Positions 867 to 38,100 of a stretch of DNA of 45,288 nucleotides are shown here, one piece after another. Each line of letters begins with the position of its first letter. Positions within the stretch are counted from its first letter, which is position 1. The DNA is from Acidobacteriota bacterium. Lineage in GTDB: Bacteria > Acidobacteriota > Blastocatellia > RBC074. The translations under genes were made by a program, and so were the position numbers. Where the stretch lies: the NCBI GenBank assembly GCA_016196035.1, contig JACPYM010000062.1:1-45288 (forward strand), in the 5' to 3' direction. Under the pieces are notes generated by a model. The model was given only the letters and a program-made list of their open reading frames with translations, was not told where the DNA came from and made no database searches.

Positions 867-3800
867 ATGTTGCATCAATCTCCCCTATTGAAGCACTTGC
901 TCAAGCGCGCTGGCGGTCTCCTGCTATGCCTATTATGCCTGCTGTGCCTGCTCACCTCCCCCGCGCTGGCCCTGGCGCTACTGCCCGAACCCGGTTTAAG
1001 CAGCGCCAGCCTTATTTTCCTGCCCTGGCCAGGGAAGCTTGTCTGGCTGGGGCTGCTTTGTCTGGGAATGGCGCTTTACCAGTCAACGCCACAGGCCGCA
1101 GACCTCAACGAAGACCTCAACCTCGATCAACCTTTCGCCAAAATCTTCGATGACTTGCCGGTGCCGATGGCGCTCATGCGCATACGTGATCGCGTTTTCG
1201 TCTCGGCCAACCAGGAATTTCAACGCCTCACGCGTTTGCCACTCACTGGCATTGTGGGCAAAACCCATCAACAAGTTGGGTTCGAAGTGGCACCCGCCGA
1301 ACAGCAACGCTTTTACGCTTGCATTCTGGCGCAACCGCGCGTGCGAAATTACGAATTGACGTTGCGCTTCTCTGGGCATGAACTTGTCTTGCTGATTTCG
1401 TCTGAACAGATCAGCTTCAACGGCGAGCCTTGCCTGCTTGGCTCATTTCAAAACATCACGGCGCGCAAGCTGGCCGAAGAGCGCTTTGCCAAAGCCTTTC
1501 ACGCCAATCCGGTCTCGATGACGATCATTCGCCGCCGCGATTACCGCATCGTCGAGACCAACCCCAGCACGTTAAAACTGACCGGCCTCACGCGCGCCGA
1601 CATGCAAGACAAAACCTTGCGCGAGCTGAACGTAGAGATTGCGCCGGCAACCTGGCAGGAAATCAACGCACGTCTGGCCGCCACCGGCCAGCTCAGCGAC
1701 TATGAATTCAAAGTCATTTATCGCGGCCAGGAGCGCACTTTACTGGCAGGCGCTGAAACGATTGAGTTCAACGGCGAGCCTTGCATTTTGTGGTCGCAAC
1801 AAGACATCACCGAACGCAAACTCGCCGAAGAGCGCTTTGCCAAAGCCTTTTATGCGAACCCGCTGCCGATGTGCATCAGCCGCGCCAGCGACCTGCGCTT
1901 TATCGCTGTGAATGAGAGCACGCTACGTTTTACCGGCTATACGCGGGCGGAAATGCTGGGCAAAACGCGCTGCGAGTTGGGCATGGTCGCCGATGAAGCA
2001 GAAGAACAAAGGCTGCAAGCCCAATTGCAAGACCACCAGGCGTTGCAGGATTTTGAGTCGAATGTAACCCTGCAAGGAAAACGCCATACGCTGTTGGTTT
2101 CGGTTGAGTCAATCGTGCTGAACGGAGAACCCTGCTGGCTTTGGACTTCGCAAGACATCACCGAGCGCAAGCGCATAGAGGAACGCTTTACCAAAGCCTT
2201 TTTCAAAAGCCCTACGCCCATGACGATCTCGCGGTTTGCCGACCGCCGCCATCTGGCCGTCAATGATAGTTATGCGCAACTCACGGGGGTGACGCCAGCC
2301 GAGTTGGTGGGCAAGACGGCGCAAGACCTGGGGTTTGTCGTTGACCCGGTGAAACAAACGCTATTCTGGCAAACTTTGCTAGAGACCAAGTCCGTGCGCA
2401 ATTTCGAGCTTGAAGCGCAATACCGCACGGGCAACCGGAGCTTGCTGGTGTCGGCGGAATTGCTGCCCCTGGAAGGCGAATTGAGCATCTTGTGGACGCT
2501 GCTGGATATTACCGAGCGCAAACAGGCTGAAGAACGCTTCACCAAAGCCTTCCAGGCGCACCCGCTGCCGATGGTAATTTTGCGGTATGGCTCACATGAA
2601 ATTCTGCATGCCAACGAGATTTTTCTCCGGCGCTCCCGGCGCTCGCTCGCCGAGGTGCAAGGGAAAGTGCCCGCCGAAATCGGTTTCGGCATTGATCTGG
2701 CAAAGGTCAAGGCCATTACCGAGATGTTGCGTGCGACAGGGTCGGTGCGGGATTACGAGTTACAGACCAGCTATCAGGGGCAGGAACTTTATTTTTTGAC
2801 CAGCGCCGAGTCTATGAACCTGGACGGCGAACGCTGTGTGCTGTGGTCATTTCAGGACATCACGGCCCGCAAACGCGCCGAAGCGGCCTTGCAAGAAAGC
2901 CAGGCCCGCTTGTGTATGGCGCTGGAAGCCGCAGCGCTGGGGATTTGGGAACACGATCTAAAGACCAATCTCGTCTATCTGGATGAGCGCGCGCAAAAGC
3001 ATTTCGGCCTCGCCTCCGGCCTGCCCCTCGCTGAAATCTTTTGCCGCATTCATCCGGATGATTACGAAGCCGCGCGGCGCGTGATGCACGCCCTGCACGA
3101 TCCGCAAACACCGCGGCAACAGCAATCGCTCGAATATCGTTGGCGGCATCCGGACGGGACGACCCGTTGGCTGCGCTTCGACCTCTATGTCAGTTTTGCG
3201 GGGGAAGGCAGCCAGCGTCATCCCGTGCGCAGCATCGGCACCAGTCTCGACATCACGGAACGCAAGCAAGCTGAAGAAGCCTTACGGGAAAGCGAATGGC
3301 GCTATCGCAGTCTGGTCGAAGATCAAACTGAATTCGTCGCGCGCTGGCGGCCCGATGGGACGCGCACCTTCGTCAACGACAGTTATTGCCGTTTCTTCGG
3401 CTTGCCCCGCGAGAAAGCAATCGGCACGAAATGGTTTCCGGCGACTTTTGACGAGACCACGCAAGCGGAATTTGCCAAACTGCTCGCCTTGACGCCCGCG
3501 CAGCCCTTGCATCAGGTCGAACACTTGACCCGCCGCAAAAATGGGCAACTCACCTGGACCCACTGGAGCAATCGCGCCATCTTCGATCAGGGCGGACACC
3601 TCAGCGAATTTCAATCCGTGGGGCGCGACATCACTGAACGCAAGCAGGCCGAAGAGATTGCCCAGCGCTGGCAGAGCGTGTTTAACCAAACGCATTGCGC
3701 CATGGCCTATCTCAATGCCCGGGACAACACGTTTATTGATGTCAACGAAGCCTATGCCGGCGCCCACGGCTATCGGCGCGAAGAGTTACTGGGCCAGCCC

Positions 3801-6800
3801 CTCGCCATCCTTTATCCGCCTGCCCGGCGCGCCGAATTGGCCGCCGACATTCAATTGACTCAGCAGGCCGGCCATCGCGTTTTTGAATCTACGCACGTGC
3901 GCAAAGACGGCACCAGCTTCCCGGTGTTTTTGGAGGTCACCGCGTTGCAAGACGCCGCTGGCCGGCCCTTCGCGCGCATCGTTTATGCACGGGACATCAC
4001 CGAACGGAAACAAGCGGAAGAAGCTTTGCGCGCCAGCGAATTGCGTTACCGGCAATTGGTCGAAGATCAGCTTGATTTCCTCGTGCGTTGGACACCGGAT
4101 GGCCTGCGCACCTTCGTCAATGATAGCTATTGCCGCTTTTTCGGCTTGCCACGCGAAACGGCCATCGGTACAAGCTGGTTCGATATGGCAGCGCTCGCCG
4201 CAGACGATCCCCTTCGCCAAAAACTGGCGGGCATCTCGCCCGAGACACCGATTGTTGAATGGGAGCACCAGTGCCCTGCCCCGGACGGCAGCCTAGCTTG
4301 GACGCATTGGGTCAATCGCGCCTTTTTCGATGAAGCTGGCCGCCTCGTCGAATTTCAATCAGTCGGACGCGACGTCACGGCGCGCAAACAGGCAGAAGAA
4401 CGCTTCGCCAAAGCCTTTTACGACAATGCGGTGCCGATGAGCATTGTGCGCGCCGACAACGATGTCATCATCGAGGTCAACCGCGCGTATACCGTACTCA
4501 CCGGCTGGTCGCAGGAAGAAGCGTTGGGCAGGACTTGCGCCGAAGCCGGCATCCAGTTTTCGGTTGAAGATCATCAGCGCGCGCTGGCTGAATTGCGCAG
4601 GACTGGGTTGTGCAATCCAGCCGAATTCAAGGCCGATTTCAAGACCGGCCCCAAAACCCTGCTCTCCTCCGCCAGTTTGATCTTCTTTAATGGAATGGAG
4701 TGTGTGCTCTGGTCGGAACAGGACATTACCGAACGCAAGCAGGCCGAAGAAATCGCCCAACGCTGGCAAAGCGTTTTTAGCCAAACGACTTTCGGGCTGG
4801 CCCACACCAACGTGGCTGACAATACTTATCTGGATGTTAACGAAGCCTATGCGCGCACGCGCGGTTATACGCGCGCGGAACTGATTGGCCAGCCGGTTGC
4901 CATCATCTATCCACCAGAAGAGCGCGCGCGAATTGCACAGATCACCATCGAAATTGATCGCACCGGACATGCCATTTTCGAGACCGTCCATCAGCACAAA
5001 GATGGCTCGCAATTCCCTGTGCTGATGGAAATCACGGTCATCCGTGATGCTCAAGGTAAGCCCGTTTCGCGTATCAGCTACACCAGTGACATCAGCGAAC
5101 GCAAAAAGGTCGAGGCCGCGTTGCAAGCCAGCGAAGCCAAATTCCGCATTCTGGCCGAAACCTCGCAGGCGGCGATTTTTATCACCGATCAGGAGCGTTT
5201 CCTGTATGCCAATCCAGCGGCAGAAAAAATCTTCGGCTACACGCCAGCGGAAATGTTGCAGCATTCGTTTGCGGGTCTGGTGCATCCTGATTCTCTGCCC
5301 GCCATTCAAGCGCGTTACAACGCCTGGTTGCACGGTGAACCCGTCGCCACCCGCACCGAGTTAAAGATTGTGACGAAAAGCGGCGCGCCGCGCTGGATTG
5401 AGTCGGCGGGCGACAGCCTCGTGCTCAACGGCCGCCATTGCTATCTCTCAACGATCCTCGACATTACCGAACGCAAACAGGCCGAAGAAGCCTTGCGCGC
5501 CAGCGAAGCCAAATTCCGCGCGCTGGCTGAAACCTCGCAGGCGGCGATTTGTATTTACGATGCGCAGGATACCTTTATCTACGCCAACCCTGCCAGCCAT
5601 GAGTTATTTGGTTATACGCCGGCTGAACTGACCAGCAGAACGATCTGGGACGTGATTCATCCTGATTCGCGCCCTGCGGTGGTAAAGCGTCAAGCGGCCC
5701 GCTTGCGCGGCGAGACCGTTCCCCCACGTAATGAAATCAAGATTCGTAATCACGCCGGTGAGACTCTCTGGGTAGATTATTCAATCGGTCAAATCGAATT
5801 TGCAGGCCGCTCTTGTTACGTCATCACGAACTTTGACATCACGGAACGCAAACACACCGAAGAAGAATTGCGCATTTCCGAAGAACGTTTCGCCGCCGCC
5901 TTTAACGCCAGCCCCGATGCCATGGCGATCACCACTTTTGACGAAGGCCGCTTTGTTTTGGTCAATGATGCCTGGGTCAAAACTTTCGGCGTCACACAGG
6001 CAGAAGCGCTCGGCCAGCGTTTTCAAAGCCTCAACCTCTGTGTGGACGAGGCGCAACGCAACTACCTTTTCAATCAAGTGCGAACAGTTGGGCCGGTGGT
6101 GGATTACGAGGTGACGACGCACGCTCCGGAGGGCCAGACCAGCACGCTATTAGTCACTGCCAAATTGATCAAACTCGGGGCTGAAACCTTTGTGCTCTCC
6201 GTAAGCAGAGACATCAGCGAACGCAAGCGGGCCGAAGAAGAGTTGCGTATTTCCGAAGAGCGATTCGCCGTCGCCTTTAACGCCAGCCCGGATGCTATGG
6301 CCATCACGACCTTTGATGAAGGCCGCTTTGTTTTGATCAATGACGCTTGGGCCAGGATTTTTGGTGTCAACCCGGCAGCGGCACCCGGCCAGCAATTGCA
6401 AAACCTCAACGTCTGGATGGACGAAAAAGACCACCATTATATTTTCAATCGGGTGCGCACAGCCGGGTCGGTGGTTGATTATGAAGTAACCGGGCGCACG
6501 GCGCAGGGCCTCTCCATTACGTTTCTGCTCACGGCTAAATTGATCAAACTCGGCGCCGAAACCTTTGTGCTGTCGGTGATCAAAGACATCACCGAACGCA
6601 AACGCGTCGAAGTGGAATTGCAAACCTCACAAGCACAATTACGCAATCTGGCCGGACGTTTACAAACCGTGCGGGAAGAAGAGCGCACCGCCATCGCCCG
6701 CGAGATTCACGACGAACTGGGTCAAGCCTTGACCGGCATCAAAATGGATTTGAAATGGCTGGAGCAATTGCTGCCGCCTGAGGCTGAACCGGCGCGCGAA

Positions 6801-7343
6801 CGCCTCACATCAGTGTACAGTTTGATTGGGAATACGGTGCAGAGTGTGCGGCAATTGGCCACTTCGCTGCGTCCGGGCGTGCTGGACGACTTCGGACTGG
6901 TCGCGGCGCTGGAATGGCAAGCCCGTGATTTCACCAAGCGCACCGGCATCGCCTGCGGCTTTGACGAACTACCCGAAGAGTTGCCGCTGGAACCCGCGCA
7001 TGACACCGCGCTGTTCCGCATCTTTCAAGAAGCACTGACCAATGCCGCGCGCCATGCCGGGGCCAGCCAGATCAACGTGCGGTTACGTTATGAGAGCAAC
7101 GCCTTACGCCTGCAAATTCGTGACAATGGAAAAGGGATTAACGCCGACGCCATCAAACACAGCCGTTCGCTGGGTTTGGTCGGAATGCGCGAACGCGCGT
7201 TATTGTTGGACGGAGAATTCAGCATTGAAGGCAGTCCCGGCGCCGGTACGACCATCAACGTACACATTCCGGTGGCTGCCCACACTCAACCAGAACCTCT
7301 AACCGGGGAGAACACGAATGATTCGCATCCTGATCGCCGATGA
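867..7343 (+). CDS. Giant sensor histidine kinase with 15 PAS domains
   Basis: Multi-PAS sensor kinase of the NarL/DegS (HisKA_3) type that would autophosphorylate and pass phosphate to the overlapping response regulator. An ATG at 867 gives 2158 aa; a GTG at 807 in the same frame would add 20 residues. A Leu/Cys-rich hydrophobic stretch and a second near W-P-G-K-L-V-W suggest an N-terminal membrane anchor. Fifteen PAS repeats of about 120 residues follow, each ended by a D-I-T-E-R-K-type linker. Repeats 14 and 15 are almost identical, and repeats 7 and 8 resemble 9 and 11. The kinase core has the phospho-acceptor motif AIAREIHDELGQALTGIK, then an HATPase with N box (FQEALTNAARHA), DNGKGI and GLVGMRERA. 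The C-terminus overlaps the regulator start by 26 bp. Such a high PAS number is rare; the signals sensed are unknown. Confidence 0.93.
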   Translation: MLHQSPLLKHLLKRAGGLLLCLLCLLCLLTSPALALALLPEPGLSSASLIFLPWPGKLVWLGLLCLGMALYQSTPQAADLNEDLNLDQPFAKIFDDLPVPMALMRIRDRVFVSANQEFQRLTRLPLTGIVGKTHQQVGFEVAPAEQQRFYACILAQPRVRNYELTLRFSGHELVLLISSEQISFNGEPCLLGSFQNITARKLAEERFAKAFHANPVSMTIIRRRDYRIVETNPSTLKLTGLTRADMQDKTLRELNVEIAPATWQEINARLAATGQLSDYEFKVIYRGQERTLLAGAETIEFNGEPCILWSQQDITERKLAEERFAKAFYANPLPMCISRASDLRFIAVNESTLRFTGYTRAEMLGKTRCELGMVADEAEEQRLQAQLQDHQALQDFESNVTLQGKRHTLLVSVESIVLNGEPCWLWTSQDITERKRIEERFTKAFFKSPTPMTISRFADRRHLAVNDSYAQLTGVTPAELVGKTAQDLGFVVDPVKQTLFWQTLLETKSVRNFELEAQYRTGNRSLLVSAELLPLEGELSILWTLLDITERKQAEERFTKAFQAHPLPMVILRYGSHEILHANEIFLRRSRRSLAEVQGKVPAEIGFGIDLAKVKAITEMLRATGSVRDYELQTSYQGQELYFLTSAESMNLDGERCVLWSFQDITARKRAEAALQESQARLCMALEAAALGIWEHDLKTNLVYLDERAQKHFGLASGLPLAEIFCRIHPDDYEAARRVMHALHDPQTPRQQQSLEYRWRHPDGTTRWLRFDLYVSFAGEGSQRHPVRSIGTSLDITERKQAEEALRESEWRYRSLVEDQTEFVARWRPDGTRTFVNDSYCRFFGLPREKAIGTKWFPATFDETTQAEFAKLLALTPAQPLHQVEHLTRRKNGQLTWTHWSNRAIFDQGGHLSEFQSVGRDITERKQAEEIAQRWQSVFNQTHCAMAYLNARDNTFIDVNEAYAGAHGYRREELLGQPLAILYPPARRAELAADIQLTQQAGHRVFESTHVRKDGTSFPVFLEVTALQDAAGRPFARIVYARDITERKQAEEALRASELRYRQLVEDQLDFLVRWTPDGLRTFVNDSYCRFFGLPRETAIGTSWFDMAALAADDPLRQKLAGISPETPIVEWEHQCPAPDGSLAWTHWVNRAFFDEAGRLVEFQSVGRDVTARKQAEERFAKAFYDNAVPMSIVRADNDVIIEVNRAYTVLTGWSQEEALGRTCAEAGIQFSVEDHQRALAELRRTGLCNPAEFKADFKTGPKTLLSSASLIFFNGMECVLWSEQDITERKQAEEIAQRWQSVFSQTTFGLAHTNVADNTYLDVNEAYARTRGYTRAELIGQPVAIIYPPEERARIAQITIEIDRTGHAIFETVHQHKDGSQFPVLMEITVIRDAQGKPVSRISYTSDISERKKVEAALQASEAKFRILAETSQAAIFITDQERFLYANPAAEKIFGYTPAEMLQHSFAGLVHPDSLPAIQARYNAWLHGEPVATRTELKIVTKSGAPRWIESAGDSLVLNGRHCYLSTILDITERKQAEEALRASEAKFRALAETSQAAICIYDAQDTFIYANPASHELFGYTPAELTSRTIWDVIHPDSRPAVVKRQAARLRGETVPPRNEIKIRNHAGETLWVDYSIGQIEFAGRSCYVITNFDITERKHTEEELRISEERFAAAFNASPDAMAITTFDEGRFVLVNDAWVKTFGVTQAEALGQRFQSLNLCVDEAQRNYLFNQVRTVGPVVDYEVTTHAPEGQTSTLLVTAKLIKLGAETFVLSVSRDISERKRAEEELRISEERFAVAFNASPDAMAITTFDEGRFVLINDAWARIFGVNPAAAPGQQLQNLNVWMDEKDHHYIFNRVRTAGSVVDYEVTGRTAQGLSITFLLTAKLIKLGAETFVLSVIKDITERKRVEVELQTSQAQLRNLAGRLQTVREEERTAIAREIHDELGQALTGIKMDLKWLEQLLPPEAEPARERLTSVYSLIGNTVQSVRQLATSLRPGVLDDFGLVAALEWQARDFTKRTGIACGFDELPEELPLEPAHDTALFRIFQEALTNAARHAGASQINVRLRYESNALRLQIRDNGKGINADAIKHSRSLGLVGMRERALLLDGEFSIEGSPGAGTTINVHIPVAAHTQPEPLTGENTNDSHPDRR

Positions 7344-7947
7344 CCACGCCATTGTGCGCAGTGGCCTGAAACAAATCGTCACGCATACGCCCGACTTGAC
7401 CGTCGTCGGTGAAGCCACCTCGAGCCAGGAATTGCTCACGCTGGCGCGCCAACAGCCTTGGGACCTGATCATCCTCGACATTCACATGCCCGGCCGCGGC
7501 GGCCTCGAAACGCTCAAAGACCTCAAACGCGAGTTTCCCAAATTGCCCGTGCTGATTCTGAGCATGTACCCCGAAGACCAATACGCCGTGCGCGCCATCA
7601 AGGCGGGCGCTTCCGGTTACCTCAGCAAAGACAGCGCGCCCGACGAATTGCTGACTGCCATCCACAAAATCCTGCGCGGCGGCAAATACATCAGCTCCAT
7701 CGTCGCGGAGCACTTGGCGACCGCCGTTGATGCCAAATCCGACAAAGCGCCGCACGAATTGCTCTCGGACCGCGAATACCAAATCCTCTGCCTGATCGCT
7801 TCCGGCAAGACCGTCGGTGAAATCGCCGTCGAACTCAATCTCAGCGTCAAAACCGTCAGCACGCATCGCGGCCGCATCCTCGACAAAATGCAGATGAAGA
7901 CCAGTGCCGAACTGACGCATTACGCGATTCGCAATCAGTTGGTTTAG
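7318..7947 (+). CDS. NarL/LuxR-family response regulator
   Basis: A 209-aa two-component response regulator. The receiver domain (about 1-120) has the acidic pair D8/D9, phospho-acceptor D54 in LIILDIHMPG, conserved S82 and K104 in GYLSKD. A LuxR-type helix-turn-helix (about 146-205) starts with the typical L-S-D-R-E-x-x-I-L-C-L-I-A-S-G and has TVSTHRGRILDKM as recognition region. The start lies 26 bp inside the upstream kinase gene, so the two are almost certainly co-translated and form a cognate pair. Expected to bind DNA as a dimer after phosphorylation. Targets cannot be read from the sequence. The region after the stop is a heptamer repeat array that may act as a two-way hairpin. Confidence 0.95.
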   Translation: MIRILIADDHAIVRSGLKQIVTHTPDLTVVGEATSSQELLTLARQQPWDLIILDIHMPGRGGLETLKDLKREFPKLPVLILSMYPEDQYAVRAIKAGASGYLSKDSAPDELLTAIHKILRGGKYISSIVAEHLATAVDAKSDKAPHELLSDREYQILCLIASGKTVGEIAVELNLSVKTVSTHRGRILDKMQMKTSAELTHYAIRNQLV

Positions 7948-7948
7948 T

Positions 7949-8080
7949 CGGTAACCGGCAATCAGTAGTCGGTAGTCGGTAGCCGGTAGTATCGCAATTT
8001 CTTTATCAATGCCTGACATTAGCCGCGCACTCGTAACCGGCTACCGACTACTGACTACTGACTACCGACTACCGACTACT
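7949..8080. repeat. Inverted array of 7-bp repeats between convergent genes
   Basis: The left side carries tandem GTCGGTA-type heptamers (about 7949-7993) and the right side their complements, TACCGAC/TACTGAC units (about 8031-8080). The two sides can pair into a long imperfect hairpin between the convergent regulator and asparaginase genes, so it may end transcription from both sides, though there is no clear T-tract. The TAG stop of the asparaginase (8076-8078) lies inside the right array. Confidence 0.8.
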
Positions 8081-13002: not shown

Positions 13003-15914
<2,912 letters not shown>

Positions 15915-16606: not shown

Positions 16607-16754
16607 AATTTGAAATTTGAGATGAAGTGGGCTGCTGGCTTAAGTGGCAGGTACCGTGTCCAAATATTTAAGCCTGGCGATTGAGACAGAAAACGGACTA
16701 CGGACTAAACCCGTAAGTTCAATCCGCAATCCGCATTCTGCAATCCGCAATTAA
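16607..16754. repeat. Heptamer arrays between peptidase remnant and STAS gene
   Basis: Three short arrays with period 7: AATTTGA twice at 16607-16620, CGGACTA twice at 16694-16707, and CAATCCG, CAATCCG, CATTCTG, CAATCCG, CAATTAA at 16720-16754. The last unit contains the stop codon of the leftward STAS gene. No hairpin terminator with a T-tract is evident. Confidence 0.8.
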
Positions 16755-17435: not shown

Positions 17436-18989
17436 ATGCTGGCAACTCAAACGCTGCTGAATTTCAGCGAGGCCGAACGTCCGCTGGGCGAGCGTTTGCT
17501 CAAACTCGCCGCCGAAACCGACCGCATTGAGGGCTACCGCGAACCGCACGCCACCGAAATCGCCCGGCTGGCCGAAAAGCTGGGGCAGCGGCTGGGGTTG
17601 CACGGCCTGGACTTGAGCGCGCTGAAATTTGCGGCCCTGGCGCATGACCTGGGTGAACGCGCGATGAAACGCGATTACCTGCTGCGGCCCGGCAGCTTGA
17701 CCTGGGAAGAGCAACTCGATTTGTGGCGGCATCCAATCATCGGAGAGCAAGCCGCCGCCGAAATGAAATTGCCCCGGCTGTCGCAACTGCTGATTCGCTG
17801 GCATCACGAATGGTGGAACGGTCAAGGCTATCCTGATGGATTGGCGGGCACGGCGATTCCGCTCGGCGCGCGCATCTTGCGCCTGGTGGATACTTATTGC
17901 GCGCTCTTAGCCGACCGCCCCTATCGCGCCAGTCTGGAACGCGCCACTGTCGAACAATTCATCGCGGATCAAGCGGGCATTGAAACCGACCCTCAAGTCG
18001 TCAAAGAATTTCTGGCCCTGCTTGTCGAAGAGCGCCCCGTCAGCATCCCCGTCGAACCCGAGCCTATGTTTGCGCCAGCCGAAGAATCCGCTCTGCCGGA
18101 TTACTACACGACAGCTCCCTCTGAAGCTGAAGAGGCTGACGCGCCCATCGAGAGTCCGGCGGCGCCCATCGTTTCCGTTTGGAATCAAGCGCGCCAGGAG
18201 GCCGATGCCGCACCGCTCAGATGGCAGGGCCTGACGGCGGATGAAGCGCAAGACCGCTGGCCCGCCACGCAGGACTTTCCGGCTGTGGCGGAAGAATCGC
18301 CGACCGCCGTGGCCCACGACGAAGCCGCCATGAATTCAGTTCAAGCATTACCCGCTGTTGAATTCATTCCGGCTGAAGCGCCCGCCGAACCATTGATGGA
18401 ACTGGCCACCACGCCAACTGCCAACACACTGATTGAACCGCCGGATGAACTGCCAGATGAACTGCCAGATGAACTGCCAGATGAACTGCTGGATGAGTTG
18501 ATGCTGCCCGTCGAAACCCCGGCGCAACCTGCGGCAGCAGTAAGTATCGTTAGCTTAAGTGAGGCGCCGGATTATTTTTGGCCCGTCGCACAGTGGCTCT
18601 ATGACCAATGGTGGGCGCTGCCGGGCAGCACAATCAATGTGGTTTCCGATCAACTCAAAGAGCATTTGGCTGTTCAGCCGCTGCCCTCAACCTTGGTGGC
18701 AGTCGTGAACGAAAAGCCTGTCGGTTCGATTTCCCTGCATGAACACGCCAGCGCCGAGCGGCCTGATTTGACACCCTGTTTGGCGGCGCTTTATGTGCGG
18801 CCCGAAATGCGCGGGCACGGCGTCGCCTCGCGCCTGCTGGCAGCCGCCGAAGCGCGCCTGCGCAGTTTGGGCGCGGAACGGCTTTACTTCACCGTGCCGG
18901 AACAGAATGACTTTTTCGTCAGGCGCGGCTGGCAAGTCCTCGAACCGGCGGCAGGCGCGCAAACCCTGCTCGTTTTAGTGAAGGAATAG
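17436..18989 (+). CDS. HD-GYP domain protein fused to a GNAT acetyltransferase
   Basis: A 517-aa two-domain fusion. Residues about 20-200 form an HD-GYP domain with a full metal/catalytic set: H38, H70-D71, H99, H123-H124, G131-Y132-P133 and D152 in the run [24 protein letters not shown] enzymes hydrolyse cyclic di-GMP or related cyclic dinucleotides. Residues about 205-365 are an acidic, Pro/Ala/Glu-rich linker with four to five P-D-E-L repeats. Residues about 370-517 form a GNAT N-acetyltransferase with the acetyl-CoA loop [14 protein letters not shown] and a late F-x-x-R-R-G-W. I do not know a described family with this order. The next gene starts 17 bp downstream, so they are probably co-transcribed. 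Substrate of the acetyltransferase is unknown. Confidence 0.9.
18439..18500 (+). repeat. 12-bp in-frame tandem repeat (PDEL)
   Basis: About four to five copies of CCAGATGAACTG or close variants in the linker of the HD-GYP/GNAT gene. Each unit encodes Pro-Asp-Glu-Leu, so copy number changes keep the frame. Confidence 0.85.
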
Positions 18990-29212: not shown

Positions 29213-29290
<78 letters not shown>

Positions 29291-35177: not shown

Positions 35178-38100
35178 GGTTCCTCCCGCAACTCAGGAAA
35201 TTGGTATTGCAGCTTCAACCCTGCCAGTCCGCGCGGTTCGGCGCGGTAGGTGGCCGTGCGCAACTCCTTGATGAGCTTTTTGAGCGCCAGCGCTTTTTCC
35301 GCATCGCTGGCGGTTTCGTATTCGAGCGAGTTGACCAACTCGCCGGCGGCGGCGGCGAAGGTGTGACCGAAGGCCGCCTCGCGCTCGCGCAAGAGCGAGG
35401 TCGGTTCGTTCCAATCCTGCACGCCCACCGCTTTCCCGCTCAGCCGCGGCAGCCGCAGACTGACGCCCTCGCCCACCGGCAGCGCGCGGTTCAAGCGGCT
35501 GATTTCCGTCTGGATCGCCGACGGGTCGTAGGTGTTGACCTGGCCGGGCAGCACCGTCGCGGCCAGCTTGCCCGGCGCGCCTTGCTGGCCGATGGCCGTC
35601 TTGACCGGTTCGCCCGTCAACAGGCTCACGCGGGCGGGGAAGCGCGACGAGACGCCCGGCAATTGCGTCAGGACTTTGTTGCGGGCCTCTTCGACGACGC
35701 CGGAGAGGCCGCGCCGCGTTTCGGGCCGCGTGTCGCGCGTGTAGTCGTCGGTGAAGCCGCGCGTCTGGCGCAGCAGTCCGGGCACGAACGACGCCGGCGC
35801 GTCCACCGCGATGCTGCGCGCAATGTTGCCGGTCGCCTCGACGAAGTTGCGCCCGCGTGCTTGTTCGAGGTAATGCGCCACGTTCTTGAAAACGCTCTGG
35901 TCGCCCATAACTTCCAGCACATTCGTCAGGCTGTTGCCCGCCGCCGCCGCGCCCGCCTGTGCGCCCTTCATGCCGGTGAGTTCGCCCTTGCGCTGCAACT
36001 CCATCAACGAAGCGCCGACCGATGCCCCCATTGCCCAGGGTTGCACCCAATCAATCGGGACGAGCTTATCGCCTTTCACTGGCCGTAAGTCCGGTTGCAC
36101 GCCGCGTGACAGGGCGTTGAGCGTTTCCGGCAAGCGCACCAGCGCCGACAGGTTCACCGAGAAGCCGCGCAAACCGGCACGCCCTTCTTCGGCTTTCAGC
36201 GTGTAGTCCTTTTCATCGGACGGCGCAGCGAGGATGCCCAGTGCATTGAGTGCCGCGCCCGCCCCCAACGTCTGCGCCGTGCCCACCGTCGCGCGGGAAA
36301 GGGAAAGCAACGCCTGCCGCCGGGCATACGGATCGGCGCCATGCACGGCATGCACCGCGTGACGCGCTGCTTCAAACAGACCGAGCGGGGAATACTCAAG
36401 CGCGCGTTTGGTGAGCGCGCCCGGCGTCTGGCTGTATTTCAACACGAAGTCGCCCAGTCCGAAGTTTTCGGTTCCGGTGACCGGCTTACTGAGCGAGTTG
36501 AGCGCGCTCCGAATCCGGCTGGCGGTTTCCGAGACGAAGTTGGGATCGCGGAGCGTTGCATAGTTTGCTTCGGCCATCGCGCGATCGAGCAAGGCGGCGC
36601 GCGCCTTGCCGTTGAGTGGTTGGCCGCTGCGCTGTGCCGTCTTCACCAGCGCATCAAAGGCACGTTGGTAATGGCCGGTCCAGTTGCCAGCGTCCGGAAC
36701 TTCGTTAATCCAAAACAACAGGTTGTCGAACGCCTTGCCCAGCTTGTTTGAGCGCGTACCCGGTGGCAGGTTCGGTTTGCCTGGCAAGGGCTGGCCTTGC
36801 TGGTGCGCCGCGACAGCCTGCTTCATCCCGTCCACATAGTGGCGGAAGAAGGGCACGTCCGGCGCGATGTTCGTGCGCGCCGTGCCGGTCAGCTTCGAGA
36901 AACCAGCATCGAGCGCCGAGGCCACGCCCTGAACGAGCTTTTCCTGTCCGGTGAAGACGAAGTGCTGGACGATGTTCCGCCCCACGAATTTCGGCGTGGC
37001 AAGTTGCGCCGCTGTCTGCGCGCTGCCCACCGTGTCAAAGAAACGCCCGCGCGCCCCTGGTTGTGTGGCGGCGCTGGCTGCGTTCGCAATCCCTTGCCCG
37101 ATGTCGGTGATGACCTGGCCGGACACGAAACCCGCCTCGCCGCTGCGCCGGTGCAAGGCTGGGGGATTGGTCGGTTGTGCGGAGGGCGAGTCGGGCGGCG
37201 TTTCCATCAACAGCGCATTTGGCCTTACGCCTTCCGCGCCGATCTCCGTTTGCTGTCCAAGCGCGGAGTCCGTGTCAGGGAAAAGCGCATTCAAGCGCGC
37301 GAGTTGGCCTTCGCGCCAGACATCCACCGGCGGCGCTTCGGCGGTGGGTAGCTCTGCCACTGTTGCCGCTGCTGCTGTTTGCGGGGCAACCGTTGCGCTT
37401 TCCGCCCGGAAGCTCTCAAGACTGAGCGGGTCTGCTGTTGCCGCAGTCGTCGCCCTCGTCACTGGCTCATCTGTCATCCGCATGGCCGTTTCTACTTCCG
37501 GCGACGTCTCTTCCGGCATCCAGAATCCCGCTTGCGCGCGCAAGGTGGCCTCGTATTGTGCGGCGGCTTCAGCTTGACTGAGCAATCGTTCGGCCTGGCT
37601 CTCCAAGGCAGCCAATTGCGTTGCCGCTGTTTGCCCGGCAGCAACAGCCTCACGTCCCACCGGCACAATGCCTTGACTCAAGAATTGCGCATCGCGTTCC
37701 TGCGCCAGCCGTCCCTGTTCGACGGCAGCGAGTAACGGTTGGGCTTGCGTGTGAAGCTCTGCCAACGCCTGCTGATGCTCATCAACCGTCAGGCCGAAGG
37801 CTTGGCGCACCTGTGCGTCAAGCTCCGGCGCGCTTGATTCCGTTGCAACACGTCCGGACGCACCGGCATGCTGCCGACCGGGATAAAAAGCGGCATCCAT
37901 CAGACCGCTCGTCACGATGTTTTGCAGCGCGTCCTGTCCGTCCATTCCACGCGCCAACGCTTCCGCGCCACCCACGCCTGCACCCGCCGCGCCGGTGATG
38001 GCCCGGCCTGTCAGTTGGCGGCCCAGCGCGGAACCCGGCGCAACTTTTGCAGCCGTGCCCAGCGCCAGCCGTTCGGCCATTCCGCCCGCCTTTGCGCCTA

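Follow-up and report, generated by a model that had tools for sequence, protein, structure and literature searches.

In two-component pairs of the DesK and VraS kind, a transmitter composed of HisKA_3 and HATPase_c domains stands beside a response regulator with a receiver and a GerE domain. The inputs of DesK and VraS are short and contain no array of PAS domains. The same transmitter and the same type of regulator are encoded side by side in the stretch of Acidobacteriota DNA analysed here (45,288 nucleotides, called the window), but the kinase of this pair, unlike DesK and VraS, receives its input through 15 PAS domains. Single kinases with a long run of PAS domains are known from cyanobacteria, in which up to 19 PAS domains occur in one histidine kinase (Aulosira, UniProt A0A1Z4MZL8; Xing 2023, PMC10468136); the likeness of the Aulosira protein to the window kinase is that of its published description. 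In myxobacteria, orthologues within one genus have gained or lost a duplicated PAS unit and, likewise, a poly-HAMP tract (PMC4603909). That report describes one PAS case, whereas in the subfamily presented below 0 to 16 PAS domains are found across a class. Long PAS arrays are already known, and the window gene alone is an unusual but precedented kinase; what merits further attention is the range of 0 to 16 PAS domains attached to a single output module. With a probability of roughly 0.8, we regard the window gene as encoding a membrane-anchored HisKA_3 kinase of a two-component pair, with 15 cytoplasmic PAS domains as its input, an array that has grown by duplication and an output end that has remained under constraint.

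The transmitter was identified by its HisKA_3 domain (amino acids (aa) 1939-2006; 64.4 bits, cut-off 24), which places the protein among the DesK/NarX-type kinases, and by its HATPase_c domain (aa 2047-2137; 57.2 bits, cut-off 26.4). In a sequence search of the PDB, the kinase core retrieved the HisKA_3 relatives VraS and DesK, and it aligns with DesK. The regulator combines a receiver with a LuxR-type (GerE) helix-turn-helix domain and thus belongs to the NarL/FixJ family. Hydropathy analysis of the kinase revealed two hydrophobic stretches near the N-terminus and no further one beyond aa 100; the spacing between the two would be too short to accommodate a large extracytoplasmic domain. An in-frame GTG is also present at 807.

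The PAS units end in D-I/V-T/S-x-R-K or a near variant thereof, and cutting at this linker yields 15 units ahead of the transmitter, in agreement with the original prediction made from this DNA. A profile trained on the array's own units likewise recovers 15, a circular result. With the Pfam model PAS_9, 12 of the 15 are recognised at E<=1e-3, and 10 score above its cut-off; PAS 6 passes PAS_3, and PAS 1 matches PAS_8 just below the cut-off. Altogether, 14 units match some Pfam PAS model at E<=0.01 and 11 exceed the cut-off of PAS_9 or PAS_3. PAS 5, which no Pfam model matches at E<=0.01, is counted as a PAS unit because it is 36-42% identical to PAS 1-4. AlphaFold2 models were built with the window's own units as the sole input alignment. 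PAS 14 was modelled as a PAS fold with a predicted local distance difference test score (pLDDT) of 89.3; compared with its 20 best PDB matches, which include LOV, FixL and other PAS domains, it reached template-modelling (TM) scores of 0.71-0.80 (query-normalised) at 15-24% identity. In the model of PAS 14-15 the two units are joined by one 23-residue helix, H122-144 (pLDDT 90.7, predicted TM score 0.63). Fifteen units had been called extreme. The count is indeed high, but it is neither unique nor a record, as a paralogue in the same genome (G000:C36, hereafter C36; L031:2163-9149) has 16 and the cyanobacterial report (PMC10468136) gives 19. The core of C36 is 51-52% and its adjacent regulator 54-55% identical to those of the window.

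The relationships among the units were derived from pairwise identities and from two trees that include units of relatives (86 and 55 units, respectively). By type, the array reads A A A A A C B D B A D E E F F, which confirms the predicted map (1-5 with 10, 7 with 9, 8 with 11, 12 with 13, 14 with 15), and both identities and trees support the predicted stepwise growth by internal duplication. The amino acid identities within the pairs are 60% (7/9), 56% (8/11), 52% (12/13) and 70% (14/15); all four pairs are starred in both trees, with 96-100 bootstrap and 87-100 Shimodaira-Hasegawa-like approximate likelihood ratio (SH-aLRT) support in the 86-unit tree. PAS 10 shares 42% of its residues with PAS 2 and with PAS 3, and in both trees the type A clade includes a unit of L036, a kinase from the same genus. 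The placement of PAS 6 shifts: in the 55-unit tree it groups with three L036 units and three units of another relative, L044 (100/98), and in the 86-unit tree, which lacks those units, it stands weakly beside 12/13 (88/37). Twelve of the 16 units of C36 fall outside the clade holding the window's types A and F, a difference between the two large arrays.

The pairs 7/9 and 8/11 are equally diverged, with 63% nucleotide identity each, a nonsynonymous divergence (dN) of 0.34 and 0.35 and a tree path of 0.70 each. This suggests that B-D was copied as one block, and a single two-unit duplication fits the order of units 7-8 and 9-11 well. The shared order pointed out in the original prediction is thereby upheld, but the late insertion of PAS 10 into the second copy is disfavoured. 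The dN of PAS 10 relative to PAS 2 and PAS 3 is 0.65 and 0.63, higher than the values of the B-D copies, so that with equal rates PAS 10 would have split from 1-5 before B-D was copied; unequal rates between the subtypes would weaken this dating. Moreover, the best-supported sister of PAS 10 is a unit of L036 (95/85, 55-unit tree). An early split implies either an ancestral block B-A-D, the first copy of which lost A, or an origin of PAS 10 from another gene.

The latter alternative can be extended to the array as a whole, in that recombination at the common linkers, and not copying within the gene, might have brought in units from other genes with multiple PAS domains. The L036 sister of PAS 10 agrees with import, as do the relatives of types A, C, D and F found in other proteins and the linker codons of the window gene, which are alike beyond the expectation from codon usage (532/839 vs 417, standard deviation (sd) 24; for example, linker 1449-1484). 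Arguing against import is the 86-unit tree, in which the members of 7/9, 8/11, 12/13 and 14/15 are each nearest to one another within the same protein. In addition, the linkers of C36 show no internal excess (214/434 vs 212, sd 17) whereas those of the window compared with C36 are also raised (726/1278 vs 630, sd 32), such that a positional codon preference may explain part of the excess. With respect to gene conversion at the linkers, the codon counts are ambiguous. Import as the general origin of the units is doubtful, and duplication within the gene is preferred.

PAS 14 and 15 are the closest pair in the protein and mutually nearest among the 86 units compared. They had been described as almost identical and attributed to a very recent duplication. 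Near-identity applies to the N-terminal third and to most of the last ~25 residues; as a whole, the two units differ in 38 of 125 residues and in 87 of 375 nucleotides, with 48 of the nucleotide differences at third positions. The synonymous divergence (dS) is 0.84, half of the comparable fourfold sites differ (21/42), and among the 125 codons 32 carry only synonymous and 38 amino-acid-changing differences. The synonymous sites are not yet saturated (55/87 identical codons vs 38.4, sd 4.6, expected), which is compatible with a young pair. However, four aminoacyl-tRNA synthetase pairs from the window genome and the same-genus genome G001, chosen as calibrators because rpoB and PEPC had no match in G001, yielded dS values of 0.96, 1.02, 1.13 and 1.20, with 0.37-0.48 of their fourfold sites differing. 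Six calibrator pairs had been computed; one was dropped as non-orthologous (27% identity) and one because its longest frame was not the regulator. On a clock, the duplication of 14/15 would be about as old as the split between the window species and that of G001. A very recent origin is contradicted unless the synonymous rates of this gene are many times those of the genome, and we consider it very improbable.

The same differences bear on the question of whether faulty assembly created the repeat of 14/15 or even the array as a whole. In favour of an artefact, the genome is a draft of 139 contigs and the window is an entire contig. Against it stands the open frame through all 15 units and the fact that even the closest pair differs far more than by read error; 87 differences in 375 nucleotides rule out a simple assembly duplication of 14/15. 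The chance of an artefact is practically negligible. A hidden collapse of truly identical units may have occurred, in which case the true count would exceed 15.

The divergence of PAS 14 and 15 is unevenly distributed. The dN is 0.06 in residues 1-42, 0.31 in residues 43-98 and 0.09 in residues 99-125, whereas the dS is similar throughout (0.68, 0.88 and 0.99, respectively), which makes the nearly identical ends look like the outcome of purifying selection. When mapped on the model, the changes are found mainly in helices C to E (10 of 22 residues), helix F (6 of 13) and the turns 61-65 (3/5), 79-81 (2/3) and 91-95 (4/5); the regions of strands A and B have 0 of 11 and 1 of 8, respectively. 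Ligand binding by PAS domains usually involves the C-to-F helix region. As far as can be judged from the sequences, the duplicates therefore probably differ in specificity or no longer bind ligands.

The number of PAS domains in relatives, a check proposed with the original prediction, ranges from 0 to 16. With PAS 14-15 and the kinase as the query, no whole-gene orthologue was found among the matches listed from 57 relatives, of which the same-genus genome G001 is only 73% complete; the best match was the own-genome paralogue C36 (43%), and a genome contig scan added two far relatives (38% and 42%). Searching 162 genomes of the class with the regulator yielded 41 matches (E<=1e-60), that of the window included, in 34 of the genomes. 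Directly upstream of 34 of these regulators lies a kinase core on the same strand, 41-56% identical to that of the window (itself aside). The remaining loci were dropped from the PAS count (L086, L088, L090, L091, L092, L098 and L101); L098 may encode kinase and regulator in a single frame. According to a profile built on 86 units from the same genomes, the 34 kinases contain 0 (nine kinases), 1 (three), 2 (eight), 3 (four), 4 (two), 5 (two), 6 (one), 7 (two), 10 (one), 15 (the window) and 16 (C36) PAS domains, with the proviso that the zero counts, from frames of only 315-484 aa, may hide divergent PAS domains. No PAS match (E<1e-3) occurred in up to 1.5 kb upstream of any of the 34 kinases in the three forward frames, and thus the low counts are not due to broken frames. 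Pfam scans of seven of the 34 revealed PAS-rich HisKA_3 kinases, two with GAF domains. The arrays of the window's own genome, counted in the stretches retrieved, have 16 units and then 7 or fewer. One contig of G001 (L037, G001:C467, 3104 bases) consists of a single open frame, truncated on either side, with eight PAS domains and part of another; of the proteins compared, C36 matches it best (33%).

In a tree of core plus regulator, the window kinase groups with L036 of the same genus, which has 5 PAS domains (95/94), followed by L035 of another family, which has 3 (87/85, not starred); C36 is not the sister of the window gene. The three kinases with at least 10 PAS domains require three changes on this tree, at least two of them by starred branches. 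Since shuffled labels require no more (mean 2.9), the large arrays are dispersed across the tree. Of 82 pairs sharing at least 60% core-plus-regulator identity, which are not mutually independent, the PAS number is equal in 12 and differs by two or more in 49; one pair with 80% identity has 1 and 6 PAS domains, respectively.

In the mechanism we propose, the kinase would dimerise, and changes in the PAS domains would pass along the helices joining successive units to set autophosphorylation of the histidine in the dimerisation and histidine phosphotransfer (DHp) domain. From there, phosphotransfer to the adjacent NarL-type regulator is predicted. Several intracellular cues would in this way be combined into one transcriptional output, the regulator reading their sum. 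On this reading, the array grew as single units and at least one block of two were duplicated and some units were exchanged or lost, and the output end remained under constraint.

Several points weigh against this reading. Trees of units of ~125 columns leave many forks unresolved. The middle region of 14/15 was delimited post hoc, as was the Fisher test applied to it (p 3e-5). Seven of the 41 regulators lack a kinase core directly upstream, the 82 pairs are not independent, and the 34 pairs have core identities so low (41-56%) that they include paralogues as well as orthologues. PDB sequence searches with PAS 14, 8, 7 and 13 yielded no cofactor assignment. The best match of PAS 13 is the haem PAS protein DosP, but the histidine of the DosP motif RPAH, which we take to be the haem ligand, aligns with V in PAS 13, the sole unit aligned for it. 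LOV domains contain the flavin-adduct motif GxNCRFLQ; the entire kinase lacks 'NCR', and its units are not LOV domains by this motif. Because of these two results, no cofactor can be assigned, and many of the PAS units may be structural only. Taken further, the array might be mostly a spacer or a dimerisation stalk in which sensing is left to one or two PAS domains and the others serve to maintain the helix register. Besides the lack of an assignable cofactor motif, such a stalk would be in line with the members having 0-3 PAS domains, which retain the same core and regulator type, and with the location in the linker of five of the seven invariant or near-invariant columns of the 15 units. It would not need the maintenance of six subtypes, nor would it call for a 14/15 pair that differs most in the C-to-F helix region and is constrained at its ends. 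A stalk is therefore unlikely, and an array of sensing units remains the preferred reading.

A more far-reaching model, possible but put forward tentatively, is that, in this class, one subfamily of kinase core and regulator serves as a fixed output socket to which arrays of 0 to 16 intracellular sensors are attached and rebuilt in genus-level time, with duplicates being freed in their ligand-binding half and the coupling helices staying fixed. If so, the subfamily would offer a natural series in which to measure the number of sensors that a single kinase is able to integrate. Its members share their output end but vary widely in sensor number, so that comparison and the exchange of arrays could address both the integration of many cues by kinases and the growth of multi-domain sensors.

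Table 1. Features of the kinase-regulator locus, with positions in the window
Feature	Position	Strand	Basis and remarks
Multi-PAS histidine kinase	867..7343	+	2158 aa; single open frame, ATG 867, stop 7343
Predicted N-terminal membrane anchor	867..1067	+	Hydropathy: strong hydrophobic stretch aa 10-42, weaker aa 49-67
15-unit PAS array	1122-6602	+	Cut at D-I-T-x-R-K linker; units of 116-131 aa
PAS 1-5, type A	1122..2873	+	116-117 aa each; identity and tree
PAS 6, type C	2874..3266	+	Long branch; tree
PAS 7, type B, sister of PAS 9	3267..3644	+	Identity and tree
PAS 8, type D, sister of PAS 11	3645..4010	+	Identity and tree
PAS 9, type B	4011..4388	+	Identity and tree
PAS 10, type A, out of order between 9 and 11	4389..4739	+	Identity and both trees
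PAS 11, type D	4740..5105	+	Identity and tree
PAS 12 and 13, type E tandem pair	5106..5852	+	52% aa identity
PAS 14 and 15, type F tandem pair	5853..6602	+	70% aa and 77% nucleotide identity; dS 0.84
Transmitter (HisKA_3 + HATPase_c)	6603..7340	+	Pfam domains; PDB relatives
NarL-type response regulator	7318..7947	+	Receiver and GerE domains; start overlaps kinase gene by 26 nucleotides

Between the regulator gene and an asparaginase gene, the window contains two heptanucleotide tandem arrays (7945-7990 and 8036-8079) with the complementary units TAGTCGG and ACCGACT; further heptamer arrays are located at 14702-14735 and 16720-16751. A 12/24-nucleotide tandem repeat, in multiples of three, lies at 18434-18496 within the frame of an HD and GNAT protein (17436-18989). 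ARAGORN predicts a 98-nucleotide tRNA-Asn at 35642-35739, opposite a 1439-aa open frame; this tRNA is not supported by Rfam at the gathering score. A tRNA-Arg at 29213-29286 was found by both ARAGORN and Rfam.

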